Origin: Verrucomicrobiales bacterium
GTDB taxonomy: Bacteria > Verrucomicrobiota > Verrucomicrobiia > Limisphaerales > UBA9464
Assembly (NCBI GenBank): GCA_027490985.1
Contig: JAIXXC010000321.1
Span: forward strand, 1-46,057
DNA: 46,057 nt
Reading direction: 5' to 3'
Part shown: positions 8,905 through 46,057 of the stretch, piece after piece
Numbering within the stretch: the stretch's first letter is position 1
How the letters are laid out: the number at the start of each line of letters is the position of its first letter
The notes under the pieces: model-generated
The model's database searches: none
What the model was told of the DNA's origin: nothing
The model's input: the letters and a program-made list of their open reading frames with translations, nothing else
Program-made: the position numbers and the translations under genes

Positions 8905-8959
8905 GGGACCCGGTTCAGAGCGGAAGTTCGGAGGAACGGGGAGCGAGAAGCGACGAACC

Positions 8960-10144: not shown

Positions 10145-10302
10145 GGAAAATCGGACCACCGGAGGAGACGAAAGGCTGGAGAGCTCGACGGCGGACCTTT
10201 GCCGCCGGGGGAATCAACCGTGCCTGGGCTGCCACGCAAGTCAAACAACACCCGTTCAACCCGTCCGTGGAACGGAACACGGGGCTTGGGCATCGCTCGG
10301 GG

Positions 10303-29158: not shown

Positions 29159-30886
29159 ATGGAACTAGGGCTCTCAGGACTGGCCTCCGGCTTCGACTGG
29201 AGAACGCTCGTCAACCAGTTGGCCGATGTGGAACGGACTCCGCAGAAGCGGCTCCGGGCCGAACAGTCCACGCTCCAGAATCGGAACAACGCCTACAGCA
29301 GCATCAAGACGCAGCTGAGCGTGTTGCAAAACCGCCTGAGCGCCCTGTCCTCCACCGAGGTCCTGCAGGCCCGCAAGGCCACGGTGAGCGACTCCTCGGT
29401 GCTCACCGCCACGGCATCGGCGGGAGTCGCTTCCGGCACCTACGAGTTCAGTATCTCCCAATTGGCCACCGCCTCCAAGACGGTCGGGGCGTCCGGCATC
29501 GGGGCGAATCTCTACCCCAGCAACAACGTCAACTCCGGCACCCTCGAGTCCAAGGGCTTCAATCCGCCCATCACGGCGGGCACCATCACGGTCGACGGCC
29601 ACCAGATCACCATCGATCCCGCGGTGGATACCTTGGCCGACATCTTCAGCCGGATCGATACGGCCTCGAGCAACAAGATCCAGGGCACCTACAGCGCCAG
29701 CGCCGACACGATCACCCTAAGACGGGTCGGCGGTGGCGGTGCGACCCTGGTCGTGGGCAGCGCCACCGACACCTCCAATTTCCTCTCGGTGGCCCGCCTG
29801 TCCAACAATGGGACCAACGAGATCATCAGCTCGTCGAGCCTCGGCAGCATCGTGCCCGCCAATACGCTGAGCGGGGCCAATTTCCAGACCGCGATCAGCG
29901 ACGGGGGAAGTGGGGCGGGCGAATTCAAGATCAACGGAGTGTCGATCAATTTCAACGCCTCCAGCGACTCGGTGCAGAACCTGATGGATCGGATCAACGC
30001 TTCGGCGGCAGGCGTCAACATCGGCTACGACCGGATCAACGATCAGTTCACCCTCACCAACAAGGTCACCGGCAATCTGGGTGTCGCCTTGGAAGACGTG
30101 ACCGGCAACTTTCTGGAGGCGGCAGGCCTCAAGACCGGGTCGACTTTCCTGGCGGGCAACGACCTGCTGTACACCCTCAATGGCGGGTCGGTGCTGAGCA
30201 GCCATTCCAACACCCTGAACGAGGACAACACCGGCATCGACGGGTTGTCCATCGCCGCCCTCAAGGTGGGCACCTCGACCATCACGGTCGCCTCCGACAC
30301 CAGCACCATCAAGGGAGCCGTCAAGAGCTTCATCGACGACTACAACCGCGCCCAATCGACGATCGATTCGCTCACGGCCAGTTCCACCGATTCGACGGGC
30401 AAAGTCACCCGATCCACCTTGGCCGGAGACAGCGACGCCAACGACATCGCCTCCAAGCTCCGCGCGATCGCCTTCAATCAGGCCACCGGACTCACCGGCA
30501 CCCTCAATTCGCTGGCCAAGATCGGCATCGACACCACGGGCGACAACGACCGGCTCACCCTCAAGGACGAAACCGCCCTCGACGACGCCATCGCCAACAA
30601 CCTCGCCGGCCTCAAGCTGCTCTTCAACGATCCCGACAAAGGCATCGCCGCGAAGCTCAATGCCTATCTGGGCAAGACCATCGGCGAAGACGGCTCACTC
30701 ATCACCCGGCAAGATGCGTTGACCAAGCAATCGAGCGAAATCGACATCCAGGTCACCGACCTCGAAAAGCGGGTCCAATCCAACCGCCAGCGTCTCATCG
30801 ACAGCTTCGTGCAGATGGAAACCGCCCAGCAGTCGATCAACCAGCAGCTCAAGTTCCTGCAGCAGCGCTTTGGCGGGACGAATTGA
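29159..30886 (+). CDS. fliD: Flagellar filament cap protein FliD (hook-associated protein 2)
   Basis: This 575-aa protein has a FliD N-terminal signature (LGLSGLASGFDWRTLVNQLADVERTP) followed by coiled-coil-like LQNRNNAYSSIKTQLSVLQNRL. A variable Ser/Thr/Asn-rich middle lies at about 100-350. The C-terminal FliD domain includes VKSFIDDYNRAQSTIDSLT, LAKIGIDTTGDNDRLTL and a terminal coiled coil (SIDIQ-like segment EIDIQVTDLEKRVQSNRQRLIDSF). FliD caps the filament and helps flagellin subunits assemble. No signal peptide is present, as expected for export through the flagellar system. The ATG at 29159 lacks an obvious Shine-Dalgarno. It is the only flagellar structural gene in the window and is followed on the same strand by the pseudaminic-acid genes. 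Confidence 0.93.
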   Translation: MELGLSGLASGFDWRTLVNQLADVERTPQKRLRAEQSTLQNRNNAYSSIKTQLSVLQNRLSALSSTEVLQARKATVSDSSVLTATASAGVASGTYEFSISQLATASKTVGASGIGANLYPSNNVNSGTLESKGFNPPITAGTITVDGHQITIDPAVDTLADIFSRIDTASSNKIQGTYSASADTITLRRVGGGGATLVVGSATDTSNFLSVARLSNNGTNEIISSSSLGSIVPANTLSGANFQTAISDGGSGAGEFKINGVSINFNASSDSVQNLMDRINASAAGVNIGYDRINDQFTLTNKVTGNLGVALEDVTGNFLEAAGLKTGSTFLAGNDLLYTLNGGSVLSSHSNTLNEDNTGIDGLSIAALKVGTSTITVASDTSTIKGAVKSFIDDYNRAQSTIDSLTASSTDSTGKVTRSTLAGDSDANDIASKLRAIAFNQATGLTGTLNSLAKIGIDTTGDNDRLTLKDETALDDAIANNLAGLKLLFNDPDKGIAAKLNAYLGKTIGEDGSLITRQDALTKQSSEIDIQVTDLEKRVQSNRQRLIDSFVQMETAQQSINQQLKFLQQRFGGTN

Positions 30887-31316: not shown

Positions 31317-32378
31317 ATGATTGCGGCAGACCATCTCTCCATGATTCCACCAAGTCAGATAAAGGACAGTCCCAAGCGGATCCTGATTACCGGAGGCACC
31401 GGTTCATTCGGAAAGCAGTTCGTGGCCTCGTTATTCGAGAGACACCCGTCGGTCGAGAGGGTCGTCGTGTTTTCCAGGGATGAGCTCAAGCAGTTCCAGA
31501 TGAGCCAGGGCTACCCCGACAAGAAGTTCCCCGCGATTCGGTTCTTCATCGGCGACATCCGGGATCCGAACCGGATCCGCCGGGCATTGGAGGGCATCGA
31601 TACGGTCATCCACGCCGCCGCCCTCAAGCACGTTCCCATCGCCGAGTACAACCCGTTCGAATGCATCAAGACGAATGTGATCGGTGCCCAGAACCTCATC
31701 GAAGCCTGCCTAGACTCCCAGGTGCGCCGCGTCATCGCCCTGTCCACCGACAAGGCCGCCGCCCCGGTCAACCTGTACGGTGCGACCAAGTTGTGCTCCG
31801 ACAAGCTCTTCATCGCCGCGAACAACATCAAGGGCACCCGGGATCTGAGATTCTCGGTGGTGCGCTACGGGAATGTCATGGCCAGCCGGGGCTCGGTGAT
31901 CCCGTTCTTCCTAGAGAAGAAGCGCGAAGGAGTGCTGCCGATCACTGATCCGAGCATGACCCGATTCAACATACGACTCTCCGAGGCGGTGGACATGGTC
32001 TTCTGGTGTCTCCAACACGCCCGGGGCGGAGAGATCTTTGTCCCCAAAATCCCCTCCTACCGAATCCTGGATCTGGCCGAGGCCGTCTGTCCGGCCTGCA
32101 CCAAACCGGTGGTCGGAATGAGACCCGGGGAAAAACTCCATGAAGAGATGATCACCAGCAGCGACAGTCCCAACACGATCGATCTCGGACCCTACTACGC
32201 CATCCTGCCCCCCGATTATGCCTGCAGCCTTCCCGAATACTGCCAGCAGACCGGCGCTACGCCGGTCCCGGCCGGTTTCAGCTACAACAGCGGCAGCAAC
32301 AACCACTTCCTTACCGTCGACCAACTCCGCACCCTCATCGCCTCGGAGTCGGCTCTCAAGATCGCCTCGCACGGTTAA
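31317..32378 (+). CDS. pseB: UDP-GlcNAc 4,6-dehydratase (inverting)
   Basis: PseB converts UDP-GlcNAc to the UDP-4-keto-6-deoxy-L-AltNAc-type intermediate, the first step of pseudaminic acid synthesis. The 353-aa SDR protein shows the Rossmann motif RILITGGTGSFGKQFV, the HAAALKHVPIAEYNPFE segment and STDKAAAPVNLYGATK with the lysine of the SDR active site, all typical of PseB/FlaA1. The C-terminal GMRPGEKLHEEMI motif is also characteristic. The ATG at 31317 has AGGA 6 nt upstream. It is coupled to pseC by a 4-bp gap. Confidence 0.95.
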   Translation: MIAADHLSMIPPSQIKDSPKRILITGGTGSFGKQFVASLFERHPSVERVVVFSRDELKQFQMSQGYPDKKFPAIRFFIGDIRDPNRIRRALEGIDTVIHAAALKHVPIAEYNPFECIKTNVIGAQNLIEACLDSQVRRVIALSTDKAAAPVNLYGATKLCSDKLFIAANNIKGTRDLRFSVVRYGNVMASRGSVIPFFLEKKREGVLPITDPSMTRFNIRLSEAVDMVFWCLQHARGGEIFVPKIPSYRILDLAEAVCPACTKPVVGMRPGEKLHEEMITSSDSPNTIDLGPYYAILPPDYACSLPEYCQQTGATPVPAGFSYNSGSNNHFLTVDQLRTLIASESALKIASHG

Positions 32379-32382
32379 TTCC

Positions 32383-33546
32383 ATGATCCCCTACGGCCGA
32401 CACGACGTCTCGCAGGCCGACATCGATGCCGTGGTCGAGGTGTTGCGTTCGAACTGGCTCACCCAGGGGCCGATGGTGCCCCGTTTCGAGCGTGGGGTGG
32501 CCGATTTCGCGGGCGCTGCCCACGCGGTCGCCTCCAACAGCGCGACGAGTTCCCTCCACGTCGCATGCCTCGCCCTGGGCGTCGGTCCCGGAGACCGGGT
32601 GTGGACCTCCCCGAACACCTTCGTCGCCAGCGCGAATTGCGCCCTCTACTGCGGGGCGGAGGTCGATTTTGTCGACATCGACCCATGCTCCTACAACCTG
32701 AGCGTCGAGCGGTTGTCCGAAAAACTGGCAACGGCAAAGATCAACGGAACCTTGCCGAAGGTTGTGATCCCGGTTCATTTCGCCGGTCAACCGTGCGACA
32801 TGCCTGGCATCCACGCCTTGGGTCGAGAGTACGGTTTCAGGATCATCGAAGACGCCTCCCATGCGATTGGTGCCTCGTACCTGGGAACCAAGGTCGGCTC
32901 ATGCCAACACAGCGACATCACCGTCTTCAGCTTCCATCCGGTGAAGATCATCACCACCGCCGAGGGTGGCATGGCGACCACCAATGATCCCGACCTGGCA
33001 GAACGCATGGTCCGTCACCGCTCCCACGGCATCACCAGCATGCCTGACCGGATGCGACCCCGACCTGCGGATGAGGTCTGGAATTACCAACAGATCGATC
33101 TCGGGTTCAACTACCGCATGACCGACCTCCAGGCTGCGCTCGGCCTGAGCCAGCTGGGGCGCCTTGAGCAATTCGTCAAGATCCGCCGGGAGATCGCCCG
33201 CAGTTACGATGAGGCACTGGCGGACTTGCCCGTCATCCTGCCCTGGCAGGCTCCCTCGACACTGTCGAGCTATCACCTGTATCCGATCCGGATCCGCGAG
33301 AGCCTGTGCGGGAAAACCCAACGCCAAGTCTACGACGCCCTCACTGCCGCCGGGATCGCGGTCAATCTGCACTACATCCCGGTGTATCGACACCCCTTCT
33401 ACGAGGCCAAGGGATTCAAGGTCGGCCACTGCCCGGAGGCTGAAAAACACTACAGAGAGGCCATAACCATCCCAATTCATCCAACTCTTTCAATTAGCGA
33501 ACAAGAATTGGTTATCGAGTCGCTGGAAATGATTGTTAAATTATAG
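32383..33546 (+). CDS. pseC: UDP-4-amino-4,6-dideoxy-L-AltNAc transaminase
   Basis: PseC is a PLP-dependent DegT/AHBA-fold aminotransferase that aminates the PseB product using glutamate. The 387-aa protein starts MIPYGRHDVSQADIDAVVEVL, with NSATSSLHVACLALGV, the aspartate motif RIIEDASHAIGASY and the PLP lysine in FSFHPVKIITTAEGG. NYRMTDLQAALGLSQL and NLHYIPVYRHPFY follow, as in PseC. The start at 32383 is chosen because the ORF-track start at 32218 lies inside pseB. An AT-rich gap follows before the next pse gene. Confidence 0.94.
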   Translation: MIPYGRHDVSQADIDAVVEVLRSNWLTQGPMVPRFERGVADFAGAAHAVASNSATSSLHVACLALGVGPGDRVWTSPNTFVASANCALYCGAEVDFVDIDPCSYNLSVERLSEKLATAKINGTLPKVVIPVHFAGQPCDMPGIHALGREYGFRIIEDASHAIGASYLGTKVGSCQHSDITVFSFHPVKIITTAEGGMATTNDPDLAERMVRHRSHGITSMPDRMRPRPADEVWNYQQIDLGFNYRMTDLQAALGLSQLGRLEQFVKIRREIARSYDEALADLPVILPWQAPSTLSSYHLYPIRIRESLCGKTQRQVYDALTAAGIAVNLHYIPVYRHPFYEAKGFKVGHCPEAEKHYREAITIPIHPTLSISEQELVIESLEMIVKL

Positions 33547-33801
33547 CCACAACATTTACAAAATAAACACATAACACCCACACCCAATCACCCGAATAGT
33601 ATACTAAACAACCAAGTTTTAAAGTCGACCCCCGTTTTATATACCCGCAGTTTTATTGCCATTTTTAAAAATCTTAAACCGAGATATCACACCTTAATCG
33701 TTAAATCCCCACCCCAAGTGATATTTCTCTGTTGAGATTTCACAAGGGTTGACAGATTGGGTATTCATAGGCTTTATTTGTTAGATTTAGTAATCAGCAA
33801 G
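33547..33801. other. AT-rich gap between pseC and pseF
   Basis: This gap is visibly rich in A and T (tracts such as TTTTTAAAAATCTTAAA) compared with its GC-rich surroundings. A loose inverted repeat, GATATCAC (33683-33690) and GTGATATT (33718-33725), lies here, and a sigma-70-like promoter near the end. No gene was recognised. It may mark the join between the pseBC unit and the downstream block. Confidence 0.65.
33749..33778 (+). promoter_or_regulatory. Possible sigma-70-type promoter before pseF
   Basis: TTGACA (33749-33754) is a perfect -35 box. TTTATT (33773-33778) is a four-of-six -10 match after an 18-bp spacer. The pseF ATG follows about 24 bp later, so the leader would be short. Confidence 0.45.
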
Positions 33802-34512
33802 ATGTCATTATTGGCAATCATCCCCGCAAGAGGAGGAAGTAAAAGAATCCCTCGCAAAAACGTGCGGCTGTTCCACGGCCAACCGATGTTGTCTTGGCCG
33901 TTGGGTGTGGCTAGATCCAGCGGCTTGTTCGATGCCATCGTTGTATCAACAGATGATGATGAAATCGCTTCGATTGCTGTCCAGCACGGTGCTCAGGTAC
34001 CATTTCGACGTCCGATAGAACTTTCAGACGACCACGCTGGGACAGAGGCAGTCGTGCAGCACGCGCTCCGGTGGTGGGAGGCAAACCGCGGGCCAGTAAA
34101 ACTACTATGTTGCCTCTACCCAACCGCGCCGTTTCTGAGGGCAGACGATTTAAGGGAGGCCCGCGACAGACTCCTCGCTGATCCTTCATTTGAATTCGCC
34201 ATCAGCGTCACTACGTTCCCATTCCCAATCTTCCGCGCCCTGCGGCGCGATCCAGCCGGACGCCTTGGTCTTCTATGGCCAGAGAACGAGAACGTTCGCT
34301 CGCAGGACTTGCCTGAAACATGGCACGATGCGGCGCAATTCTATTGGGGCCGTCCCGCAGCATGGCACGCTGGCATCAGTCTTTTCTCATCGCGCTCGTT
34401 AGGTGTGCCTCTGCCACGCCACCGGGTTCAGGACATTGACACACCTGAGGATTGGGAACGAGCTGAAGTGCTAGCGCCGACGCTGCTGGGTCCAATGAGA
34501 CGCCCCCTCTAA
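33802..34512 (+). CDS. pseF: Pseudaminic acid cytidylyltransferase
   Basis: PseF activates pseudaminic acid with CTP to CMP-Pse, the donor used by glycosyltransferases. The 236-aa protein begins MSLLAIIPARGGSKRIPRKNVR, the CMP-sugar synthetase P-loop-like signature, with VVSTDDDEIASIA, LCCLYPTAPFLRADDL and the C-terminal VQDIDTPEDWERAE seen in PseF/NeuA. The ATG at 33802 replaces the TTG start of the ORF track, which falls inside the promoter. The stop overlaps the pseG start codon (TAATG). Confidence 0.93.
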   Translation: MSLLAIIPARGGSKRIPRKNVRLFHGQPMLSWPLGVARSSGLFDAIVVSTDDDEIASIAVQHGAQVPFRRPIELSDDHAGTEAVVQHALRWWEANRGPVKLLCCLYPTAPFLRADDLREARDRLLADPSFEFAISVTTFPFPIFRALRRDPAGRLGLLWPENENVRSQDLPETWHDAAQFYWGRPAAWHAGISLFSSRSLGVPLPRHRVQDIDTPEDWERAEVLAPTLLGPMRRPL

Positions 34513-35573
34513 TGAACACCGTCTTGTTTCGTGCCGATGCCTCTGACGCTCTGGGCGGCGGCCACTGGGCGCGCTGCGGCGCTCTTGCAACCGCGCTACG
34601 GCACCGCGGTTTTCGGACCCTCCTTGCTGCACGCCCCCCGACCAACGGCCTAACACCATCGCCGCCCTGCGGCATGGAGATTCATTGGCTGAAATCTTCC
34701 GAACGCAATCCGTTGGCTGATGCGGAAGAGTGCGTCGCACTCGTCGAGACCACAGGTGCCGGCCATATCGTCGTCGACCACTACGGACTAGATTGCATGT
34801 GGGAGAGTTGGGTGCGACGCGCTTGCCCTGATGCGAGAATGATTGCTCTTGAGGACCTGCCAAATCGCCACCACAACGCGCACCTGTTGCTGGCACCAGC
34901 CGGCAGCGAAGTCGGGGAAGAGTTTCGACCCTGGCTTGCACCGGATACCTGTTACCTTGGCGGCCCCACATTCGCCCTTTTACGGCCCGAATTTGCTTTG
35001 GTCCGGCCCGAGGCGTTGATTCGACGCACCTCTGCGCCGATGAAGACCAAAGCGTTGACGGTGTTGATCGCCATGGGCGCGACCGACCCGGACGGGCTCT
35101 CGCTAGACGCCCTCGCCGGCGCCAGAGCCTCCGGAGTTGCCGGATCCATCACAGTGGTACTTGGCTCCGCCTCACCCGTCATCAATCGCGTGCACTCCGC
35201 CGTGACCGCAGACCCTGAGGCCCGCCTTATTGTTGACGAGATGGAAATGGCTGCCCTCATGACTCTTTGCGATCTTGGAATCGGCGCCGCAGGCGGCACG
35301 AGCTGGGAACGCTGTGCCGTCGGTCTGCCTGCCCTCGCTGTCTGTGTCTCGACAAACCAGGCCGAGGTAGCCGCGAGACTCGACAAGACCTCTGCCGCGC
35401 TGGTCGTCCAAGGACCACGTCCATCTGTCCAAGAGTATGCCGACGGTTTGCGCGCACTCGCCGAACCGTCCACCCGTCTAGGTATCTCCCGCAACGCGGC
35501 GGCATTGTGCGACGGAGCAGGCGCCCAGCGCGTCGCGGAACATCTGCTTACCACTTTGGCCAATCCTAAATGA
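34512..35573 (+). CDS. pseG: UDP-2,4-diacetamido-2,4,6-trideoxy-altropyranose hydrolase
   Basis: PseG releases UDP from the nucleotide sugar before condensation with phosphoenolpyruvate. This 353-aa GT-B-fold hydrolase starts MNTVLFRADASDALGGGHWARC, the G-rich loop with the conserved His typical of PseG. VVDHYGLDCMWE, the conserved aspartates in LEDLPNRHHNAHLLL, LIAMGATDPDGL and AAGGTSWERCAVGLPAL follow, as in family members. It overlaps pseF by 1 bp and pseI by 4 bp, so the genes are translationally coupled. Confidence 0.93.
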   Translation: MNTVLFRADASDALGGGHWARCGALATALRHRGFRTLLAARPPTNGLTPSPPCGMEIHWLKSSERNPLADAEECVALVETTGAGHIVVDHYGLDCMWESWVRRACPDARMIALEDLPNRHHNAHLLLAPAGSEVGEEFRPWLAPDTCYLGGPTFALLRPEFALVRPEALIRRTSAPMKTKALTVLIAMGATDPDGLSLDALAGARASGVAGSITVVLGSASPVINRVHSAVTADPEARLIVDEMEMAALMTLCDLGIGAAGGTSWERCAVGLPALAVCVSTNQAEVAARLDKTSAALVVQGPRPSVQEYADGLRALAEPSTRLGISRNAAALCDGAGAQRVAEHLLTTLANPK

Positions 35574-36610
35574 AACTCAACGACCACACTCTAGGAGCCG
35601 GGAATCCAGCATTCCTCATCGCCGAGATCGGTATCAACCACAACGGGGACCTCGATCTCGCCCGTGCGACAATCGACGCTGCGATCCAAGCCGGCGCCGA
35701 TGCGGTCAAGTTCCAGAACTACGAGACGCAAGACTTCATCAGCGACCGTAACCTGACGTTCACCTATCGCAGTCAGGGGCGGGAAGTCATCGAAAGCCAG
35801 TACGAGATGTTCAAGCGCTTCGAGCTGAATGAAAAAATGCTTGAGGCCATCGCTGCCTACTGTGCCGCCCGAGGCACCGTGTTCCTCAGCACACCTACAG
35901 GGGAACGTGGCGTCGCAGCACTCCAGCGCGCAGGCTGCCCTGCCCTGAAGAACGGCTCCGATTTTATAGGCCATCTGCCTCTCATCGCCGCGATGGCTCG
36001 AACAGGACTTCCCACACTGATTTCAACCGGCATGGCGACCGAGGACGAAATATCCGAGGCTGTCGCCGCATTCCGCTCGGCCGGTGGCGTAGATCTGGTT
36101 CTTCTGCACTGCATCTCGGCCTATCCGGCGCCTGCCGACTCGGTCAACCTCCGAAAACTTGCCACAATCAAGGAACGCTTCGGCTGCCTTGTGGGGTTCA
36201 GCGACCATACCGAGGGACATGAAGCCGCCGCACTGGCTGTCGCATGCGGCGCGTGCGTCGTCGAGAAGCACTTCACACTCGATCATGACCTGCCGGGACC
36301 AGACCACTGGTTCTCAAGCACTCCAAGCGAGTTTGCAGCACTGGTGAGGTCTGTGCGTCGCACGGAATTGATGCTCGGCTCTGCCGCGCTGGAACCTGCC
36401 GGTGTTGAGGCGACGAGCAGAAAGGATTACCGACTATCATGCGTCGCCGCCACCGACCTTGCGGCTGGCTCTTTGATCTCGCCCGCCACGCTGGCGTTTC
36501 AACGCCCCGGGCATGGCGTGGCTCCGCGCGATGCCGCGCAACTGCATGGGCGCCGGCTTCGGATCGGCATCCGACAGGGCGAAGTCATACAGATGGAACA
36601 TCTTGCATGA
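35570..36610 (+). CDS. pseI: Pseudaminic/sialic acid synthase (NeuB family)
   Basis: This 346-aa TIM-barrel synthase condenses the deacetylated hexose with phosphoenolpyruvate to make a nonulosonic acid. Motifs are FLIAEIGINHNGDLDLA, ADAVKFQNYETQDF, LSTPTGERGV, LKNGSDFIGHLPLI, VGFSDHTEGHEAA and VVEKHFTLDHDLPGPDHWFS. A C-terminal SAF/antifreeze-like domain (about 285-346) includes SLISPATLAFQRPGHGVAP. The pathway context (pseF, pseG, pseH around it) makes pseudaminic acid the likely product. The barrel motifs also resemble NeuB and legionaminate synthases, so the exact sugar is inferred. ATGA overlaps occur at both ends. Confidence 0.85.
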   Translation: MKLNDHTLGAGNPAFLIAEIGINHNGDLDLARATIDAAIQAGADAVKFQNYETQDFISDRNLTFTYRSQGREVIESQYEMFKRFELNEKMLEAIAAYCAARGTVFLSTPTGERGVAALQRAGCPALKNGSDFIGHLPLIAAMARTGLPTLISTGMATEDEISEAVAAFRSAGGVDLVLLHCISAYPAPADSVNLRKLATIKERFGCLVGFSDHTEGHEAAALAVACGACVVEKHFTLDHDLPGPDHWFSSTPSEFAALVRSVRRTELMLGSAALEPAGVEATSRKDYRLSCVAATDLAAGSLISPATLAFQRPGHGVAPRDAAQLHGRRLRIGIRQGEVIQMEHLA

Positions 36611-37158
36611 ACACTAGTCCTCATTTGCAACTCCGACCCGCCGTAGCGGCTGATGAGGCTAGGCTACTGACGTGGCGCAATGACCCTTGGATCCTCGCCC
36701 TCGGCTCACTCAACCGGAATGTGACTGCCGACGAGCACCATGTTTGGTTTGCCAAACGCATCACCAACGCGAGACACCCGATCTGGGTCATCGAAATCGC
36801 GGGCGAGCCGGCAGGCATGGTTCGCCTAGATCCCTGCTCGGACCCCACCGTGGCAAAGGTATCACTCTACCTGATCAGAGCCCACTGCGGACAGGGTCAC
36901 GGCAGGAAGGTGCTCGCACTCACGGCGGAAGCCGCAACCAACCTAGGCTATCGGGAACTCCACGCATCGGTGCGTCAGGACAACGTACGGTCGCAGCGAG
37001 CGTTTCTGAGTGCTGGCTATCTGATGGAGGCTCTGGGTGAACCCGAATTGACTATGCGACTGTCGCTTGATGACGCGACCGCTGCCAGACCGGTGTCCAT
37101 CAACAAACCAAACCCATCCGCCCATGACGATGCACCGCCAGTCTCATGTGCCGCATAA
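36607..37158 (+). CDS. pseH: GNAT acetyltransferase, likely PseH
   Basis: This 183-aa GNAT-fold protein begins MNTSPHLQLRPAVAADEARLLTWRND and shows a V/IGxAG-type core (IEIAGEPAGMVRLDP) and the acetyl-CoA-binding segment RAHCGQGHGRKVLAL. PseH acetylates the 4-amino group of the UDP-sugar between PseC and PseG, and this gene fills that position in an otherwise complete pathway. The start at 36607 gives the usual ATGA overlap with pseI. The last 20 or so residues (RPVSINKPNPSAHDDAPP) look disordered. The downstream aminotransferase overlaps its 3' end by about 35 bp. Confidence 0.83.
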   Translation: MNTSPHLQLRPAVAADEARLLTWRNDPWILALGSLNRNVTADEHHVWFAKRITNARHPIWVIEIAGEPAGMVRLDPCSDPTVAKVSLYLIRAHCGQGHGRKVLALTAEAATNLGYRELHASVRQDNVRSQRAFLSAGYLMEALGEPELTMRLSLDDATAARPVSINKPNPSAHDDAPPVSCAA

Positions 37159-38191
37159 CCGTCTCACCCATTCGGTAGAGGAGGAGCAGGCCGTGTTGCG
37201 AGTGGTCCGCTCTGGCCGATGGTCTCAGGGAGAGGAAGTCCTTGCGCTTGAGACCGAGATCGCCAGGGTGGCAGGAGTGTCCAACGCAGTTGGCGTGGGT
37301 TCCGGCCTTGGCGCACTGCGCCTAGCGCTCTCGGCACTCGGCACGGCCCCTGGAAGCCGAATAGGTGTGCCGGCGTACTCATGCGTCGCCCTCGCCAACG
37401 CCGTTCTCGCGCTCGGCGCGGTCCCCGTGCCACTCGAAGTAGAGCCTGAGACGTGGGTGCTCTCCAAGGCATCTGTCGCAGCCGAGATTGCCTCCGGTCG
37501 AGGGCTACACGCGGCGCTTGCCGTTCATACCTTCGGTTGCCCCGCACCGGTGGCCGAGATCGAAACGCTTGGCATACCCGTGATTGAGGACTGCTCCCAC
37601 GGGTTCGGTCTTGAGCCCCTCGGGCGGCTAGGCCGCATGGCTATCCTTTCGCTCCACGCCACCAAACTGCTCGGTGCAGGGGAAGGCGGTATCGTGCTCA
37701 CCAACGATGACTCGCTCGCGGATCGGGTCCGATCCGCGCGCGATTACGCAGACAAGGTTCCTGCCTCATGGCGGCTCAACGACCGTATGACCGACTTGAC
37801 CGCGGCTCTTGCGCGCTGCCAACTGGCCCGGCTGCCCAAGACAATCGTCCGGCGCGCAGAACTCGCTGCACGCTATCACATGCTGCTTTCCGGTGCCGGT
37901 TGCATGCTACCGGCTCTGGTGGACGGCAGAGTCTGGTATCGTTACGCGGTCTCCTCCGCCGACGCCGAACCGCTAATGACGCAATTGGCAAATAGTGGAA
38001 TCGCCACCGCGCGCCCGGTCGAGGACTGGTGCGGTGCGAACTCAGCCGAACCCTTGGTCAGGACACCTGTCGCCGCTCGAGCCTACAAACGCCTGCTTTC
38101 ACTACCACTCTACCCGACACTCACAGAATCCGAGCAGGACCTCGTGGGCACCCACCTGGTTCAACTGCTCGCAAAAGGTTTCCCCCAATGA
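37124..38191 (+). CDS. Second DegT/DnrJ/EryC1/StrS aminotransferase
   Basis: This 355-aa protein is a sugar-aminotransferase paralogue of PseC. It has GVGSGLGALRLALSALG, the aspartate region PVIEDCSHGFGLEP, the PLP lysine in SLHATKLLGAGEGG and RLNDRMTDLTAALARCQL. The pathway already has PseC, so this enzyme probably aminates a different keto-sugar intermediate or works on an added branch. The ATG at 37124 overlaps pseH by 35 bp; a GTG 24 bp further on would reduce the overlap. Its stop overlaps the next start codon as ATGA. Confidence 0.88.
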   Translation: MTMHRQSHVPHNRLTHSVEEEQAVLRVVRSGRWSQGEEVLALETEIARVAGVSNAVGVGSGLGALRLALSALGTAPGSRIGVPAYSCVALANAVLALGAVPVPLEVEPETWVLSKASVAAEIASGRGLHAALAVHTFGCPAPVAEIETLGIPVIEDCSHGFGLEPLGRLGRMAILSLHATKLLGAGEGGIVLTNDDSLADRVRSARDYADKVPASWRLNDRMTDLTAALARCQLARLPKTIVRRAELAARYHMLLSGAGCMLPALVDGRVWYRYAVSSADAEPLMTQLANSGIATARPVEDWCGANSAEPLVRTPVAARAYKRLLSLPLYPTLTESEQDLVGTHLVQLLAKGFPQ

Positions 38192-38811
38192 GCACCAACG
38201 CTCCATTCGACGCGATCGCGAACTTCTACAATCGTCGTGTCGCCGAATATGGCCACCATCCCAGAGCATGCGACTACGGACATGCCGAATCCCAAAAGTG
38301 CAAGTTCCACACCCTCTCATCCGCCCTCGATTATACTGATCGATCCGTGCTCGACGTGGGCTGCGGTTTCGCAGACTACGCAGACCATCTCACAGAATCC
38401 TTCCGCGGGATCACCTACAGTGGTTTGGACCTTTCGCCCGCAATGATCGCACACGCGCGAGCCACCCACCCTGACCTTGATCTGCGGGTGGGAAATATTC
38501 TGGACGAGGATGCAACTTGTTGCCCAAGCCACGACATCGTCTCTGCCAACGGCATCTTCTATCTCCTCGGTACCGAAGCGCATGCTCTGATGCGCCAACT
38601 GGTGGCAACGATGTTCGCCCGGTGCCGCGAGGCCGTCATCTTCAATTCCCTCAGCACCTGGGCCGACCTTCGTGAACCGGGCGAGTTCTATGCAGACCCG
38701 CTCAACACCGTCGAGTGGTGCCGCAAGCTGACGCCATGGGTCACCCTACATCACGATTATCTCCCCCATGATTTCACCGTCGTGCTGCGCCGCGAGAGGA
38801 ATGGCCCATGA
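38188..38811 (+). CDS. Class I SAM-dependent methyltransferase
   Basis: This 207-aa protein has motif I SVLDVGCGFADYADHL, YSGLDLSPAMIAHARATHPD (motif II acidic residue region) and DIVSANGIFYLLG. These mark the Rossmann methyltransferase fold. Its substrate is unknown; its place between the second aminotransferase and the WbqC gene suggests methylation of the sugar amine or another sugar group. ATGA overlaps on both sides show tight coupling. Confidence 0.9.
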   Translation: MSTNAPFDAIANFYNRRVAEYGHHPRACDYGHAESQKCKFHTLSSALDYTDRSVLDVGCGFADYADHLTESFRGITYSGLDLSPAMIAHARATHPDLDLRVGNILDEDATCCPSHDIVSANGIFYLLGTEAHALMRQLVATMFARCREAVIFNSLSTWADLREPGEFYADPLNTVEWCRKLTPWVTLHHDYLPHDFTVVLRRERNGP

Positions 38812-39518
38812 CCGTCTCGATCAACCAACCCGCCTACCTGCCGTGGCTCGGATACTTCAACCGGATCGCCTTATCCGACCTGCACATCGTTCTCGATCAC
38901 GTGCAGTTCGAGAAGAACAGCTTCGTCAACCGCAACAAAGCGCGGACCAGGCAGGGTTGGACTTGGCTCACAGTGCCCCTGGCCACAAAAGGCCGGTTTG
39001 GTCACCTTTCGATTAACAGCCTGAGCATCGCACCGAACGACCCTTGGGCCCGAAAACACTGGACGACAATCCGCACGAGCTACGCCCGCGCACCTTTTTT
39101 CAAAGATCTCGCCCCTGCATACGAAGCCCTATACACAAAACCTTGGATGGACTTCCTACCGATGGCCCGCGATTTTATGAGACAACATTTAGCCGACTTA
39201 GCCATCGACACTCCGGTGCTGTCCAGTTCGACCATGGGAGTTCAAGGGACTAAGAGCGATCTCGTGCTCAACCTCTGCCGAGCCGTGGGTGCCGACATCT
39301 ACCTCTCCGGCCCACTTGGGCGGGACTACCTCGATGAGGAAGCTTTCGCCTCCGCCGGAATCGACATCAAGTATCAGGACTTCGAACACCCAATCTACAA
39401 GCAATGCCAGCCGGGCCCATTCGAGCCAGCGATGGGGGTGCTCGACCTTCTGTTCAACCTGGGGCCATCCAGTCGCGCCCTGGTTCTTAAAGGATCCAGC
39501 CGACCACAGGCAGCATGA
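38808..39518 (+). CDS. WbqC-like family protein
   Basis: This 236-aa protein opens MTVSINQPAYLPWLGYFNRIALSD, followed by DHVQFEKNSFVNRNK, the hallmark of the WbqC-like family found in O-antigen and surface-glycan loci. Later segments such as DIYLSGPLGRDYLDE and DFEHPIYKQCQPGPFEP also fit. The family's reaction is not established; roles in sugar acylation or amide formation have been considered. Here it lies in a coupled block of sugar-tailoring genes, overlapping the methyltransferase by 4 bp and followed after 31 bp by a PIG-L-like deacetylase. Confidence 0.92.
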   Translation: MTVSINQPAYLPWLGYFNRIALSDLHIVLDHVQFEKNSFVNRNKARTRQGWTWLTVPLATKGRFGHLSINSLSIAPNDPWARKHWTTIRTSYARAPFFKDLAPAYEALYTKPWMDFLPMARDFMRQHLADLAIDTPVLSSSTMGVQGTKSDLVLNLCRAVGADIYLSGPLGRDYLDEEAFASAGIDIKYQDFEHPIYKQCQPGPFEPAMGVLDLLFNLGPSSRALVLKGSSRPQAA

Positions 39519-39549
39519 ACTCAGGCGCCACCGTTCCACAACTCATCGC

Positions 39550-40242
39550 ATGAACAGAAGCATACTTGTCGTCGCAGCGCATCCTGATGATGAAACACTG
39601 GGTCTTGGCGGCACGATAGCGTGCCATACAGCCGCCGGAGACCGTGTCGCCGTGCTGTTTCTGACCGATGGCGTACGATCCCGGGGCACCATCGCAGACT
39701 CCAATCTCGATTCAGCCGCTGATCGCCGCCGCAGGGCCAGCCTTGCCGCCCTTGCTGAACTTGGCGCAACTCCTCATGCCTTCGGCAACTTCCCCGACAA
39801 CGCTCTCGACTCGGTGCCGATGCTGGAAATCGTGCGATTCATCGAGGCTGCCAAGAATGCGCTTCGACCGAGCGTCATCTACACACACCATGTCGGTGAC
39901 CTAAACATCGACCACCGACGCGCAGCTCAGGCTGTTTGGACAGCATTCCGCCCCCAACCGAACGAGGCCTGGGAAAGTATCTACGCATTTGAGGTCCCCA
40001 GCAGCACAGAGTGGGGCGGCGACATCGGATGTGGGTTCGCACCAGATACGTTTGTCGACATCACTCCCTGGTGGTCTCAGAAGGCCTCGGCCCTTCGTTG
40101 CTATGAGGAGGAGATGCGCCCAGCTCCGCACGCCCGAAGCCATGCCGGCGTGGAAGCACTCTCGCGTTGGCGGGGGGCAAGCGTAGGCTTCCAACATGCC
40201 GAGGCTCTCGTCACCCACCGACGTCGTCTCACCCAATGCTGA
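39550..40242 (+). CDS. PIG-L/LmbE-family deacetylase
   Basis: This 230-aa protein begins MNRSILVVAAHPDDETLGLGGT, the zinc-binding AHPDDE motif of the PIG-L/LmbE family, with the second His-rich signature in YTHHVGDLNIDHRRA. These enzymes remove N-acetyl groups from GlcNAc-type sugars. In this setting it may deacetylate a sugar amine so that another group can be added. The ATG at 39550 is chosen because the ORF-track start (39289) overlaps the WbqC gene for over 200 bp. It lies 42 bp before the Pse-associated methylase gene. Confidence 0.92.
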   Translation: MNRSILVVAAHPDDETLGLGGTIACHTAAGDRVAVLFLTDGVRSRGTIADSNLDSAADRRRRASLAALAELGATPHAFGNFPDNALDSVPMLEIVRFIEAAKNALRPSVIYTHHVGDLNIDHRRAAQAVWTAFRPQPNEAWESIYAFEVPSSTEWGGDIGCGFAPDTFVDITPWWSQKASALRCYEEEMRPAPHARSHAGVEALSRWRGASVGFQHAEALVTHRRRLTQC

Positions 40243-40284
40243 ACCGCTTCGCCTTATCGATCGCAATCCATCCGACCGCCCCAA

Positions 40285-40917
40285 ATGCCCAACCAACTCA
40301 CCACCGACCAAGAGCACTTCTGGCAAGGCTCTTTCGGAGACTCCTACAGCGACCGTAACCGCGGTCCTGATCTCGTAGCTGCTAACGCAGCCTTCTTCGG
40401 CCGCATCCTTTCACGTGCTCCCGGAATCCAGAGCATCCTCGAACTCGGAGCCAACATCGGTCTCAACCTCCAAGCCCTCCGGCAACTCCTTCCATCCGCA
40501 CGACTATCGGCAGTCGAAATCAACACTCGCGCAGCCACGGAACTATCCCGAATACAGCCTGATGTGGCCCTGACCATCGGATCGATCCTAGACTACAAAC
40601 CCATTGCCACTTCCGATCTAGTCTTCACCAAAGGTGTGCTCATCCACCTGAACCCTGAATGCCTACCCAGAGCCTATGATCTGATGTATCACGCCTCGGC
40701 GCGATTTCTGCTTGTTGCGGAATACTACAACCCTGAACCGATCGAGATCACCTATCGCGGCCACACAGCGCGACTCTTCAAGCGCGACTTCGCAGGAGAT
40801 TTAGTGAATCGGTTTCCTGATTTAGCCATTATCGACTACGGTTTCATTTACCACCGCGATCCCGTTTTCCCGCAGGATGACATAACTTGGTTTCTCCTCG
40901 AGAAGCGTCCAACTTGA
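40285..40917 (+). CDS. Pseudaminic acid biosynthesis-associated methylase
   Basis: This 210-aa SAM methyltransferase-like protein resembles the family named for its association with pseudaminic acid loci (TIGR03587). It starts PNQLTTDQEHFWQGSFGDSYSDRNRG, followed by SILELGANIGLNLQAL (SAM motif I) and LVFTKGVLIHLNPECLPRAY. The C-terminal VAEYYNPEPIEITYRGHTARLFKRDFAGD is typical. The substrate is unknown, but its presence supports assignment of the locus to Pse or a derivative. It ends the run of closely spaced genes; a 461-bp gap follows. Confidence 0.9.
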   Translation: MPNQLTTDQEHFWQGSFGDSYSDRNRGPDLVAANAAFFGRILSRAPGIQSILELGANIGLNLQALRQLLPSARLSAVEINTRAATELSRIQPDVALTIGSILDYKPIATSDLVFTKGVLIHLNPECLPRAYDLMYHASARFLLVAEYYNPEPIEITYRGHTARLFKRDFAGDLVNRFPDLAIIDYGFIYHRDPVFPQDDITWFLLEKRPT

Positions 40918-41378
40918 AATCTTAACGACTGAATAGTCAGATCCAGGCCAAGTTACACTACGAGGCCATCAAAATGTGTCGGGATGCTAACTCTCGATGA
41001 GAGCCAACGGGATTCGCAGTCTATCAACATCCTCATCTAAATGTTTCACTCGTTGACGATACAATAAACCGACTCATCAATCAGCGATCGCTGTCGCTCG
41101 GATCGAGGCTTGCCTTTCTCGATCAGACCTTATCGAATCCGGGGCCGCATCCAATTCTCTCAGGCAGATTTTTCCTTTTCCAGCCACTCTCGGGCTTTGA
41201 ACTCCTATTTTTTGGGGCGACTAGGCAAAATGCACCACCATTTCGTTGCTTACCATTGGCACTTTTTTTGCTTCCAGTGGACCAAGCTCGATTATTAAAT
41301 GAAACATGGCCGAGCAATTGACCGTCGGCTTTACGAAATGCCATCCATTTGCTGCTTATTGTGTTGAATGCTCCCCTC
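40918..41378. other. 461-bp AT-richer gap before the large glycosyltransferase
   Basis: No gene is supported; the 62-aa plus-strand frame (41110-41298) and its 85-aa antisense frame show no recognisable feature. The region is richer in A and T than most of the window. It contains a perfect sigma-54-type promoter match at 41257-41272. No clear terminator for the upstream pse-block transcript was seen. Confidence 0.6.
41257..41272 (+). promoter_or_regulatory. Sigma-54 (-24/-12) promoter of the large glycosyltransferase
   Basis: TGGCACTTTTTTTGCT matches TGGCAC-N5-TTGCW exactly, with GG and GC in the required phase. Predicted start of transcription is about 41,284, giving a leader of about 95 nt before the ATG at 41379. 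Confidence 0.7.
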
Positions 41379-44300
41379 ATGAACAGTCATCACCCTTTGA
41401 AGATCATTAGTTTTTCACCATTTACCTTCTGGCGTCTTCATGCGTTGTATGAAATAGCGGTTTTTCATAACCTCAAATGGAGAGGACACAGGGTATCATA
41501 CATTACCTGCGATGGATTATTCAGCGACTGTGATATGTTCTGGGAATCGACTTGCGGCCCCAGACCTGAAAGCGCTTGCAAAATCTGCCAATCACACGTC
41601 CAAAACACGCTAACCGAGTTTGGTGTCCAACCAACCCCACTGGGTTCCTACAAGATCAACGATGTCAAATCCATCGCGAATGGATTTGTCACTGATCTAC
41701 CTGACGAACACCTTTTGGACGCGACCTACGAGGGTCTCCCGATTTCAAAATTGATTATTTCCTCAGTTCATTCACACTTGAGGATCAACTCGATCGACCT
41801 AAAGCACCCGAAGCATGTCGCTACAATCAGAAGTTACCTGTTCAGCGGAATTGTCGCTCTCATCCTGACTCGGAGGATGTTGGAGGTTGAGAAACCTGCA
41901 ATCGTCCTTTTATTCAACGGCCGGTTAGCAGTCACCAGAATCGCTTTGGAACTTTGCAAACGATCGGGGGTAAGAACCATTTGCCATGAACGCGGCGCTC
42001 TCTCCCAGTCTATATTGCTCTGGGAGAACGAATCCTGCATCTCTTTACGGCCGTTCGAATTACTGTCTCAGCGATGGCGTGATGTTCCTCTGTCTTCGTT
42101 TGAGTTCTCCAAGGCAACCGGTTGGTTGGAAGATCGGAGAAAAGGGAAGAATCTTGGGTGGAAGCCTTTTTCAGTGGACGGCACTTTAGGCATCGTTGAA
42201 GACTTCATTCAGAAACAGTCAGGAAAATCGATTATTGGTTTATTCACGAGCAGCACCGACGAATTCATAGCCGAAGACGAATTTAAATCTGCTTTTGAGA
42301 CTCAACAGAATTGGATTCGCCAGACGATAGATATTGCGAGAAACAATTCTCAGATTGCTTTGATCATTCGCGTACACCCGAATGCTGGCAGCAAGTCATC
42401 CACCGGCACAAACCATGATGAAATCAACTTCTTCCATCAGTTGGCAGAAGATCTACCGATTAATGTATTCCTCATCAGACCCGACGACCCGGTCAGTAGC
42501 TATTCGCTGTTGAAGCATTTGACGGTGGGACTCGCCTATTGCAGCACCATAGCGCTCGAGATGGCCTGTTTGGGTATCCCGGTGGCCTGCGCTGCTACCG
42601 GTCCTTGGACTTTTTGTGATTCAATAGAATTGATCAAGAATCCATCGGACTACCGTAGACTTCTGGACAATCTAATTTCCCTGCATGGTTCGAGCGAGAC
42701 TCGGTTGTCTAGGATCCGTTCAGCCATGCGGTTTGTTTATGCGTACATCTACCGCTGGAACATATCGTTCCCATTGGTCCGCATGCCTGACGTTCACAAT
42801 GGCATCCTGGATTGCCAATCGTCTGAGGACCTGAAACCTGGAAAACATCACTGCCTCGATTTTTGTGTGGATGTTCTTCTAGGGATCCGGGATTCAGTAC
42901 CTTCCCCAACCGTTCCGGTGCGACATGACGCAGAAAAGGAAGAGACCAACGCATTGATAAAATACATTGAAAATCTAGATCGTTCCACAGGAGCCTCCAG
43001 TTCGCCTTTAGTCAGCGTCATCATTCCATGCTATAACTACGCAGCATACGTAAGAGAGTGCATTCTCAGCGTGGTGAATCAAACCTTTTCTGATCTTGAA
43101 ATCATAGTAGTCAATGACGGTAGCACTGACAATTCCAAGAAGGTCATCGAGTCCTGCATACAAGAGTTCGGTAACACCAAGATAACCCTAGTTGATCAAC
43201 CCAATTCCGGTCAACCGGCGATATCAAGAAATAACGGGATCAAGGTCGCTAAAGGCAGATTTATATTACCGCTCGATGCCGATGATGTTTTGGGTTCAAT
43301 GATGATTGCCGAATGCTTAGATACGTTTAATCGCAACCCTGAGTCTTCAGTTGTTTATACAGATTTCATCAATCAGTCACCGGACAAGTCCCAGCATATT
43401 CAGGCCACCGGCGAGTTTCGATCCGAGCTCTTGCGAGTGAACAATCAACTCGCGTACTGTTCGATGTATCGAAGAGAGGTCTGGGAAACACTTGGAGGAT
43501 ACCATACCAATATTCGAGGGTATGAGGATTGGGATTTCTGGTTAGGGGCTTCCCTAGCCGGATTCATAGGCAAACGGATTCCCAAGGCCCATTTCATCTA
43601 CCGAGCCAAAGACTCTGGCGTTTTCTCCCAGGCAGTCGTGAAAGACAGGTTTCTCAAGGCGCAACTGCGACTGAACAATCCTCAGGCCTATTCTTCCGAA
43701 GAGATCTCTGAAGCAATTTGTATCACGGGTTCAGCGACTGAAGGTAGGCCCGGGCAGAGTCGAAACCCGGACTCGGGGTCGGAGATGGCCCCAGCTTGTC
43801 AGGATCGGACGGTCGACCCGCTCACGCAGGACCCCGCCTCGCCTGCTCAGACCTCAAATGACCCACTTGCGCAGGCCGAATCCATGGCCCGCCAAGCGTT
43901 GGCCCTGGATCCGAGAGGCCCGGATGCGATGGCGCTGCTGGCCCATGTCCTCTTCAAGCAGAAACGCTGGTTGGATTGTGCCAGGACTTGCCAGGAACTG
44001 CTTTCGGTCCAGCCCAGGAACACTGACGCAATGGTGATCCTAGGCGAGTGCCTCGTGAACCTTGGGGATCTATCGACGGCCATTGAAGTGCTCCGGAGCG
44101 CAGTCACAATCTCCCCTGCAGACCAGGAAGTGGCAGACCGCATCGCCCAGCTCGAGAAACGCTGCGCCCAGACCGTGACACTGACGGCCGAACAAGAAAG
44201 GGAGATCGAGATGGGATTGCAGGTCCTCGAGCGCGACGAGATCCCAAAAGCCCTGGAGCATTACCGGCGCGCACAGAGCCTTGGACCTGCACATCCGGAT

Positions 44301-46057
44301 CTCGACGTGATCGTCCAAGAACTAGAGACCCGGCTTGCTTCGACGCCTGCCGCGGGGGATGGAAGACCTGTGGCGCCCGGCACCCCGACTGTACCGACAG
44401 TCCCGATTTCCCCGACACTCCGGGAAGAGACCCGACATCGGGAATCAGGCTGGTCGTTCCTGATCATCACCAACGGAAAGCGCCCCGATAAACTGCGCCG
44501 GGAAATCGAATCCATCCGGGCGCTGGGCATTCCCCACCATGAGATCCTTGTGGGTGGAGAACCTCCGTCGGATCTGCCCGAGGGCGTGGGCTCCGTCCTG
44601 GCCGTCGATGCGGCCCGCAATGGCCGCCTTGGCGAGATGCGCAATGCCCTCACGGCCGCGGCCAGATATGATCATCTGGTCGTTGTCGACGACGACTTCC
44701 TGTTCCACGACGACTTCTACCAAGGTCTCCAACGGTTTGGCGACGATTGGGAAGCGCTGTCCGTTCGTATCCTCAACCCGGACGGATCGCGATTCTGGGA
44801 TTGGGCGACCCATGGTGGCCCCCGGGGGCATGTGCTGTTGGACTACGACGAGAACGACGACCATGTCTACATCACCGGGGGGCTCATTCTGCTGAAGGCC
44901 GAGGTGACCGACCGGGTGCAGTGGGACGACGGGCGCGGATTCTATCAGGGCGAGGACTTGGATTTCTCCAGACGCCTTCGCAAGGCGGGGATACGCCCCC
45001 TGTTCAACCGCCATAGCACCACCACACACGACGACGGCCGATACACCCTCGATTTGAATCCGGCGGGCCGCCGAATCGCACGGCGCTCTATCGAGCTCGG
45101 GCTACCGGTTCGCTGGGCGGCGCCCATTTTCAATCCCAGCGGTTATGCGAGCGAGGCGATCAACTTCGTCCTGCCATTGGAGAAGCGCTGCGATTTGGGG
45201 ATATTCCATCAAACGACCGTCTATTCCGAGAGCTTCACCCGCGGTTTGGCCACCGAAGATCGGGAGGCCCTGTTCCGGATGCGCGACCGGTTCAAAGGAT
45301 TGAGTGGCGGTATCGTCGTTTCACACAATCCCGCAGGCGGATTCATCCGCCTCCCTGACGCTGCCTACAGCATCGGCCGCACAATGTTCGAGACCGACCG
45401 TATCGCGCCCGAGTGGGTCGCGGCCTGCAATCGGATGGATGAGGTTTGGGTACCGTCGCAATACAATGTCGAGACCTTCGCAGCCAGCGGGGTAGAACGA
45501 CCAAAATTGGTGGTGATCCCGGGGGCGGTGGATTCGGAGTTTTTCGATCCAGCCCGGCACTCCGCCTATCCGCTGCCTGGCAAGGCCCGGTTCAACTTCC
45601 TGTCGATCTTCGAGTGGTCGTCGCGCAAGGGCTGGGATGTGCTCATCGCCGCGTATCTCCGCGAGTTCTCGGCCCAGGACGACGTCTGCCTCTGGCTGCG
45701 CACCTACCTCTTCTCGAAACCCGATGGCGATCCCGCCCAGGAGATCCGTCGACGGATCGACGCCTTCACCGCATCGCTGGGGTTGGAAGGCAAGGACCTG
45801 CCCCGCATCGAACTCATTGCCGAACAGGTGCCGAGCGACCAATTGCCGGGCCTGTACCTCGCCTGCGATTGCTACGTGGCCCCGAGCCGAGGAGAAGGCT
45901 GGGGACGCCCGCAGCACGAGGCGATGCTCATGGAACGCCCGGTCATCGCCACGAACTGGAGTGCGAACACGGAGTTCATGACCGAGGAGACCAGCTACCT
46001 CATCGATTATGAAATGGTGGAAGCCCGCGGGCTCGAGCCTGAGCTGTGGCACTACAA
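41379..46057 (+). CDS. Very large multi-domain glycosyltransferase, 3' end outside window
   Basis: My own translation reads 1,559 codons from ATG 41379 to the window edge without a stop; the ORF track misses it because no stop is reached. Domains in order: a capsule-synthesis-like GT-B-type region (1 to about 500; five cysteines between 44 and 70, ICHERGALSQ around 203); a GT2 domain (VSVIIPCYNYAAYVRE from 545, DADD at 633-636, GYEDWDFWL at 714); a low-complexity linker (about 785-825); TPR-like repeats (about 828-928); a second GT2-like domain (GWSFLIITNGKRPDKL from 1024, DDD at 1104-1106, GEDLDFSRRL at 1191); and a GT4-like domain (SRGEGWGRPQHEAM from 1503). Base composition rises sharply near 43,735. 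The likely role is building a Pse-containing glycan on a protein or surface polymer; the acceptor is unknown. Confidence 0.9.
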   Translation, partial: MNSHHPLKIISFSPFTFWRLHALYEIAVFHNLKWRGHRVSYITCDGLFSDCDMFWESTCGPRPESACKICQSHVQNTLTEFGVQPTPLGSYKINDVKSIANGFVTDLPDEHLLDATYEGLPISKLIISSVHSHLRINSIDLKHPKHVATIRSYLFSGIVALILTRRMLEVEKPAIVLLFNGRLAVTRIALELCKRSGVRTICHERGALSQSILLWENESCISLRPFELLSQRWRDVPLSSFEFSKATGWLEDRRKGKNLGWKPFSVDGTLGIVEDFIQKQSGKSIIGLFTSSTDEFIAEDEFKSAFETQQNWIRQTIDIARNNSQIALIIRVHPNAGSKSSTGTNHDEINFFHQLAEDLPINVFLIRPDDPVSSYSLLKHLTVGLAYCSTIALEMACLGIPVACAATGPWTFCDSIELIKNPSDYRRLLDNLISLHGSSETRLSRIRSAMRFVYAYIYRWNISFPLVRMPDVHNGILDCQSSEDLKPGKHHCLDFCVDVLLGIRDSVPSPTVPVRHDAEKEETNALIKYIENLDRSTGASSSPLVSVIIPCYNYAAYVRECILSVVNQTFSDLEIIVVNDGSTDNSKKVIESCIQEFGNTKITLVDQPNSGQPAISRNNGIKVAKGRFILPLDADDVLGSMMIAECLDTFNRNPESSVVYTDFINQSPDKSQHIQATGEFRSELLRVNNQLAYCSMYRREVWETLGGYHTNIRGYEDWDFWLGASLAGFIGKRIPKAHFIYRAKDSGVFSQAVVKDRFLKAQLRLNNPQAYSSEEISEAICITGSATEGRPGQSRNPDSGSEMAPACQDRTVDPLTQDPASPAQTSNDPLAQAESMARQALALDPRGPDAMALLAHVLFKQKRWLDCARTCQELLSVQPRNTDAMVILGECLVNLGDLSTAIEVLRSAVTISPADQEVADRIAQLEKRCAQTVTLTAEQEREIEMGLQVLERDEIPKALEHYRRAQSLGPAHPDLDVIVQELETRLASTPAAGDGRPVAPGTPTVPTVPISPTLREETRHRESGWSFLIITNGKRPDKLRREIESIRALGIPHHEILVGGEPPSDLPEGVGSVLAVDAARNGRLGEMRNALTAAARYDHLVVVDDDFLFHDDFYQGLQRFGDDWEALSVRILNPDGSRFWDWATHGGPRGHVLLDYDENDDHVYITGGLILLKAEVTDRVQWDDGRGFYQGEDLDFSRRLRKAGIRPLFNRHSTTTHDDGRYTLDLNPAGRRIARRSIELGLPVRWAAPIFNPSGYASEAINFVLPLEKRCDLGIFHQTTVYSESFTRGLATEDREALFRMRDRFKGLSGGIVVSHNPAGGFIRLPDAAYSIGRTMFETDRIAPEWVAACNRMDEVWVPSQYNVETFAASGVERPKLVVIPGAVDSEFFDPARHSAYPLPGKARFNFLSIFEWSSRKGWDVLIAAYLREFSAQDDVCLWLRTYLFSKPDGDPAQEIRRRIDAFTASLGLEGKDLPRIELIAEQVPSDQLPGLYLACDCYVAPSRGEGWGRPQHEAMLMERPVIATNWSANTEFMTEETSYLIDYEMVEARGLEPELWHY

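Follow-up and report, generated by a model that had tools for sequence, protein, structure and literature searches.

A predicted nonulosonic acid operon next to fliD in a Verrucomicrobiales bacterium couples WbqC, a PIG-L deacetylase, and a methyltransferase to a distinct synthase

Two described systems come close to the locus analyzed here: the classical CMP-pseudaminic acid (Pse) pathway (PseB, PseC, PseH, PseG, PseI, and PseF) and the biosynthesis of mycothiol (MshB and then MshC) and bacillithiol (BshB and then BshC), where the amine of a sugar is first unmasked by a PIG-L deacetylase and then coupled to an acid by a partner enzyme. The locus consists of 11 same-strand genes at positions 31317 to 40917, directly 3′ of the flagellar gene fliD, in a 46,057-nucleotide stretch from a Verrucomicrobiales bacterium (assembly GCA_027490985.1, contig JAIXXC010000321.1; the whole stretch is termed the window herein) that is part of a 3.49-Mb draft genome with an assembly completeness of ∼90%. 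Like the classical pathway, it combines PseB, PseC, PseF, and PseG with a NeuB-fold synthase and a GNAT acetyltransferase in a single operon; it differs in that synthase and GNAT score below the model cut-offs, the synthase belongs to another clade, and five extra coupled genes follow, among them those for a WbqC-like protein and a PIG-L deacetylase. The logic of mycothiol and bacillithiol synthesis resembles a proposed step from PIG-L to WbqC, and the window PIG-L protein best matches BshB1, although below the cut-off (66 bits); WbqC has no detectable similarity to the ligases, and substrate and product differ. With moderate confidence, we read the 11 genes as one nonulosonic acid (NulO) operon whose product is a modified sugar of the pseudaminate type and not plain Pse, with PIG-L, WbqC, and a methyltransferase acting in tailoring. 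Judged from its genes, the locus probably makes an undescribed form of sialic-acid-like sugar.

Related gene sets and sugars have been described for flagella. The Aeromonas group I flagellin glycosylation islands also carry pse genes at a flagellar locus together with deacetylase, methyltransferase, and aminotransferase genes, the deacetylase being listed as a modification gene without an assigned function; the sections of that report cited here do not mention WbqC (PMC7874193). N-substituted and N-methylated NulOs (Leg5GluNMe7Ac and Leg5AmNMe7Ac) are known from Campylobacter and Clostridium flagella, where, as in the route proposed here, N-acyl replacement and N-methylation occur (PseA, PtmG, and PtmH); the genes concerned are amidotransferase-like and of the PtmH type, and the cited sections do not report a WbqC/PIG-L pair (PMC13317340). 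In the open-access literature, we found no paper linking WbqC with pseudaminic acid, WbqC with PIG-L, or PIG-L with pseudaminic acid, in agreement with the earlier suggestion that the pair had not been described beside pse genes. The genes of the locus and the preceding fliD are as follows.

29159 to 30886, plus strand: FliD flagellar cap gene (NCBIfam FliD/HAP2 models, 2e-33; best family, though below cut-off)
31317 to 32378, plus strand: PseB, inverting UDP-GlcNAc 4,6-dehydratase (TIGR03589, 493.5 bits; cut-off, 407.75)
32383 to 33546, plus strand: PseC, C4 aminotransferase (TIGR03588, 528 bits; cut-off, 423.5)
33802 to 34512, plus strand: PseF, CMP-NulO cytidylyltransferase (TIGR03584, 285 bits; cut-off, 205.7)
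34512 to 35573, plus strand: PseG, UDP-sugar hydrolase (TIGR03590, 189.8 bits; cut-off, 153.55)
35570 to 36610, plus strand: NulO synthase with a NeuB fold and an SAF domain, member of the WbqC-module clade (below the NeuB_NnaB and PseI cut-offs)
36607 to 37158, plus strand: PseH-like GNAT N-acetyltransferase in the acyltransferase slot (PF13302, 5.6e-13)
37124 to 38191, plus strand: DegT2, second DegT/DnrJ/EryC1/StrS aminotransferase (PF01041, 3.1e-61); overlaps the PseH-like gene by 35 nucleotides (nt)
38188 to 38811, plus strand: class I S-adenosylmethionine (SAM) methyltransferase, MT (Methyltransf_12, PF08242, 1.2e-9); 4-nt overlap with DegT2
38808 to 39518, plus strand: WbqC-like protein (PF08889, 9.4e-70); 4-nt overlap with MT
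39550 to 40242, plus strand: predicted PIG-L/LmbE N-deacetylase (PF02585, 1.4e-24); 31-nt gap after WbqC
40285 to 40917, plus strand: Pse biosynthesis-associated methylase (TIGR03587, 286 bits; cut-off, 112); 42-nt gap after PIG-L

From pseF onward, adjacent genes overlap by 1 to 35 nt or are separated by gaps of 31 to 42 nt. The initial annotation had described the last five genes as coupled through ATGA overlaps or short gaps, and its coordinates and gene calls hold; family scores and motifs show all five to be intact, with their families and catalytic motifs confirmed. DegT2 retains the pyridoxal phosphate lysine, in HATKLLGAGEGG; both methyltransferases (MT and the Pse-associated methylase) have SAM motif I; and the AlphaFold2 model of MT (pLDDT, 92.7) matches the SAM methyltransferase fold in the PDB, in generic terms only. 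The PIG-L protein carries both the AHPDD motif and the second metal/catalytic motif of its family (AHPDDE and NIDHR, with H11, D13, D14, D121, and H122 invariant), and its top score against BshB1 (TIGR04001) stays below the cut-off of 182.5 bits that marks a bacillithiol deacetylase.

The same annotation had taken the six genes for Pse synthesis to be complete. This stands for PseB, PseC, PseF, and PseG, all of which exceed the curated cut-offs of the classical pathway, and not for the remaining two. The synthase scores 259.5 bits against PseI (TIGR03586; cut-off, 340.25) and 328 bits against NeuB_NnaB (cut-off, 399.65), compared with 428 to 499 bits against PseI for classical PseI proteins from four of the surveyed loci (L062, L063, L087, and L131). 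In a tree of 67 synthases, it groups with other synthases encoded at WbqC loci in a 30-member clade (support, 100) that is separate from classical PseI, and several loci (L062 and L087) hold both a classical PseI and a module synthase. The GNAT scores 41.7 bits against PseH (TIGR03585; cut-off, 93.1) and groups with the GNATs of other WbqC modules, which reach 33 to 52 bits; despite this score, its chemistry is likely to be similar to that of PseH. Since the synthase misses both cut-offs and belongs to a separate clade, and since the GNAT is also below cut-off, complete Pse synthesis is not established, and it may be misleading to assign loci of this kind to “pseudaminic acid” solely because PseB, PseC, PseF, and PseG are present. 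The window synthase is the sole NeuB-family gene in its genome, no second NulO synthase being found elsewhere in the ∼90% complete assembly. From the composition of the operon, the simplest reading would be that it makes one NulO through a dedicated synthase and not plain Pse plus extras. A further NeuB-family type, 28 to 35% identical to the window synthase and scoring far below the PseI and NeuB models, is positioned after PseC at L068, L074, L075, L077, L078, L079, L085, and L091.

To survey the gene set, WbqC relatives were gathered by sequence alone from species-representative genomes (n = 517), and the best 80 loci were analyzed. A PIG-L homologue was present at 70 of these best 80 loci and a NulO synthase at 53, in line with the proposals that the genes serve NulO biosynthesis rather than an unrelated function and that the PIG-L/WbqC pair recurs at NulO loci; the same methyltransferase was found at 35, PseC at 39, PseG at 37, PseB at 28, PseF at 25, and the Pse methylase at 16. 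The PIG-L background, determined in 20 relatives, amounts to 68 copies in 80.3 Mb (0.85 per Mb, or ∼1.7% per 20 kb), and the coupling of WbqC and PIG-L is therefore far beyond chance. In a tree of 101 WbqC sequences, the window protein lies in a 64-row clade with 98% SH-aLRT support, whose hosts span ∼15 phyla. Fifty-five of the rows are at NulO loci, 3 are accompanied by partial pse genes, and 6 have no detected pse gene; these 6 are mostly short or truncated loci, and most of them retain PIG-L, MT, or DegT2. Across the tree, the NulO label changes 11 times, versus 33 times in shuffles. The concern that the genes might occur mostly away from pse loci thus does not apply to the WbqC clade of the window, and it does apply to other WbqC branches, which are found in exopolysaccharide (EPS) loci and other DegT-type loci.

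Counts within the clade refer to 62 loci. MT immediately precedes WbqC in 32 of them, and PIG-L immediately follows WbqC in 31. A GNAT (18 loci), a formyltransferase (13), or a hexapeptide transferase (9) occupies the acyltransferase slot, with one locus having two kinds. DegT2 was found in 15 loci and the Pse-associated methylase in 20; DegT2 homologues that are 41 to 50% identical adjoin WbqC in L059, L061, L062, L065, L069, L071, and L072, and 6 other loci combine DegT2, MT, and PIG-L. Because all five genes recur at none of the other clade loci and DegT2 and the methylase are found only in some loci, the five-gene set favored at first was rejected as the unit. The conserved unit is MT-WbqC-PIG-L with a synthase of the module clade and usually one acyltransferase, DegT2 and the Pse-associated methylase being optional. 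The window has the composition by which we define a WbqC-NulO module (MT-WbqC-PIG-L with a module-clade synthase), and the link of this WbqC branch to a synthase clade, PIG-L, and a methyltransferase points to a surface sugar of a kind not yet reported in many phyla. Cultured carriers of the module encountered in the scan include Oceanospirillum linum ATCC 11336, Pseudoalteromonas denitrificans DSM 6059, Insolitispirillum peregrinum DSM 11589, and Oleisolibacter albus. In Kiritimatiellia (L034/L112, about positions 670 to 11000), the module adjoins an ATP-grasp gene, a class I aminotransferase gene, an RraA-like gene, an amidohydrolase gene, and an aldolase-like gene, which might build an acyl group.

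In the proposed pathway, PseB, PseC, the GNAT, PseG, the module-type synthase, and PseF would, by family and gene order, supply an activated nine-carbon sugar. By cleaving off an N-acetyl group, PIG-L would leave a free amine on a sugar intermediate, to which WbqC may then attach a different substituent, by N-acylation or acid ligation. The coupled MT and the Pse-associated methylase would add methyl groups, and DegT2, where present, could provide a further or alternative amine. The order of these steps is likewise putative: candidate stages for amine editing are the UDP-hexose, the free hexose, and the CMP-NulO, and editing before condensation would fit because the synthase clade is dedicated. 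Flagellin is a candidate acceptor in view of the adjoining fliD; the genome has seven flagellin matches, all on other contigs.

Several observations weigh against this pathway. The exact five-gene set of the window was found in 0 of the 62 other clade loci, an acyltransferase was undetected in 23 of the 62, and MT was undetected in nearly half. Amine acylation by WbqC is a putative assignment from its gene neighbors, because neither sequence nor fold comparisons connected the protein to one of known function, and the activities and products of WbqC, the window MT, and the window PIG-L are predicted ones. The substrate of PIG-L could be a different intermediate, DegT2 lacks a clear place in the scheme, and the GNAT may simply represent a divergent form of PseH; the product could then still be close to Pse.

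WbqC has been described as functionally uncharacterized (PMC5532660). The window protein matches PF08889 across the entire domain (235 bits, positions 1 to 216 of 218). Its AlphaFold2 model (pLDDT, 92.6) has no fold match in the PDB at E values up to 0.001 (Foldseek), and no relevant PDB match was obtained by sequence with either the single protein or the alignment as the query. Near-invariant positions in the 101 WbqC sequences include Q7, R42, H84, Y92, C157, Y174, Y197, Q199, and D213; the genome scan required the peptide Q[PS][AHQ][YF][IL]PW[LK]G, so that segment is necessarily conserved. A class I nucleotidyltransferase/aminoacyl-tRNA synthetase (HIGH-superfamily) fold, at which the QPxxxPWxG motif and some weak Foldseek matches hint (tyrosyl-tRNA synthetase 1u7d, probability of 0.23; viral TagD-type cytidylyltransferase, probability of 0.30), is retained as speculation only; hhalign comparisons with tyrosyl-tRNA synthetase and CTP-transferase profiles gave <1%, the same as negative controls.

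A universal link of WbqC to NulOs was also rejected, as other branches occur in EPS loci or as DegT-WbqC pairs. The window protein shares the PF08889 family with proteins of O-antigen and EPS clusters, whereas its own clade is tied to NulO synthases instead. In Omnitrophota and similar lineages, WbqC is followed by PIG-L and then by a WecA-type gene in exopolysaccharide-type loci. This arrangement forms a conserved EPS-like locus at L089, L095, L098, L104, L114 to L118, L120, L121, L123, L125, L126, and L130, preceded in most by a PHP-domain protein. DegT and WbqC lie within 150 bp of each other in 9 of 20 Verrucomicrobiota loci. Annotated plasmids carry GNAT-WbqC-PIG-L (Mycobacterium branderi), DegT-WbqC (Rhizobium leguminosarum, Tateyamaria, and Streptomyces), and pseB-pseC-pseF-PIG-L-pseG-NeuB-formyltransferase-WbqC (Mariluticola), and a plasmid search with MT alone returned 9 records, 5 of which have WbqC within 6 kb. 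Two Vibrio phages (V-YDF132, L202 5324 to 10577; VH2_2019, L214 5324 to 10588) encode PIG-L, WbqC, an unknown protein, a methyltransferase, a second WbqC, and a glycosyltransferase, both without NulO genes, and possibly use them for modification of phage DNA or a host-surface sugar. Across these settings, WbqC is usually accompanied by DegT or PIG-L, either of which yields a sugar with a free amine, together with an acyltransferase and a methyltransferase. A more far-reaching and decidedly tentative proposal is that WbqC represents a novel class of amine-modifying (amide-forming) enzymes whose fold is still absent from the PDB and which, with PIG-L or DegT and a methyltransferase, might exchange N-acyl groups on the amino sugars of bacteria, on an archaeon's plasmid, and in phages, the NulO branch leading to unreported N-substituted, methylated pseudaminate-type sugars. 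The ties of one WbqC branch to a NulO synthase clade, PIG-L, and a methyltransferase provide a first concrete, testable role for a Pfam family that had no assigned function and, in our search, no solved fold relative.

Among other explanations, a role of WbqC in glycan assembly, for example, as a NulO transferase, with PIG-L editing the finished glycan and the NulO being ordinary Pse made by divergent PseI and PseH, appears rather improbable. It would agree with the usual description of WbqC as an O-antigen protein (PMC5532660) and with the finding that a Maf-type flagellin glycosyltransferase (PF01973) was not detected in the genome (∼90% complete assembly), yet multidomain glycosyltransferases are encoded next door (41349 to 46055), PIG-L, DegT, and MT accompany WbqC also in phages and where a locus encodes glycosyltransferases of its own, and classical PseI is present alongside a module synthase at several loci (L062 and L087).

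Slightly less probable still is a second, separate amino sugar, such as a modified 4-amino-4,6-dideoxyhexose, linked with the NulO within a single flagellin glycan, comparable to viosamine-type sugars elsewhere. DegT-WbqC-(GNAT)-MT sets do exist at loci without NulO genes, Dickeya zeae WH1 carries MT, WbqC, DegT, and MT as an insert at its flagellar locus, between fliA and fliC, for which no function was given (PMC9650423), and the window brings a second DegT. In the WbqC clade of the window, however, the constant partner is the NulO synthase of its own clade, DegT2 being present in only 15 of 62 loci, and the operon has no separate dehydratase or nucleotidyltransferase for such a sugar.

The operon was probably acquired, because its synthase and WbqC genes are missing from the relatives searched (no synthase gene in 18 of 18 same-genus genomes and no WbqC in any same-genus or same-family genome) and because the local G+C content is lower (51 to 62% in 2-kb windows at 32 to 41 kb, below most of the window). 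While such acquisition would also suit a gathering of ordinary surface-sugar genes near pse genes by horizontal transfer without a shared pathway, this is very improbable given the same gene order in unrelated phyla, the translational overlaps, and a WbqC clade that tracks NulO context (11 versus 33 label changes).

Downstream of the operon, a very long open reading frame (41349 to 46055), which carries GT2, TPR, and GT4 domains, runs off the window end, and the G+C content drops to 47 to 50% at 41 to 44 kb. On the other side, a tRNA-Ala (CGC) gene (26861 to 26936) lies upstream of an AspRS-like gene (27222 to 29024, minus strand) and fliD.

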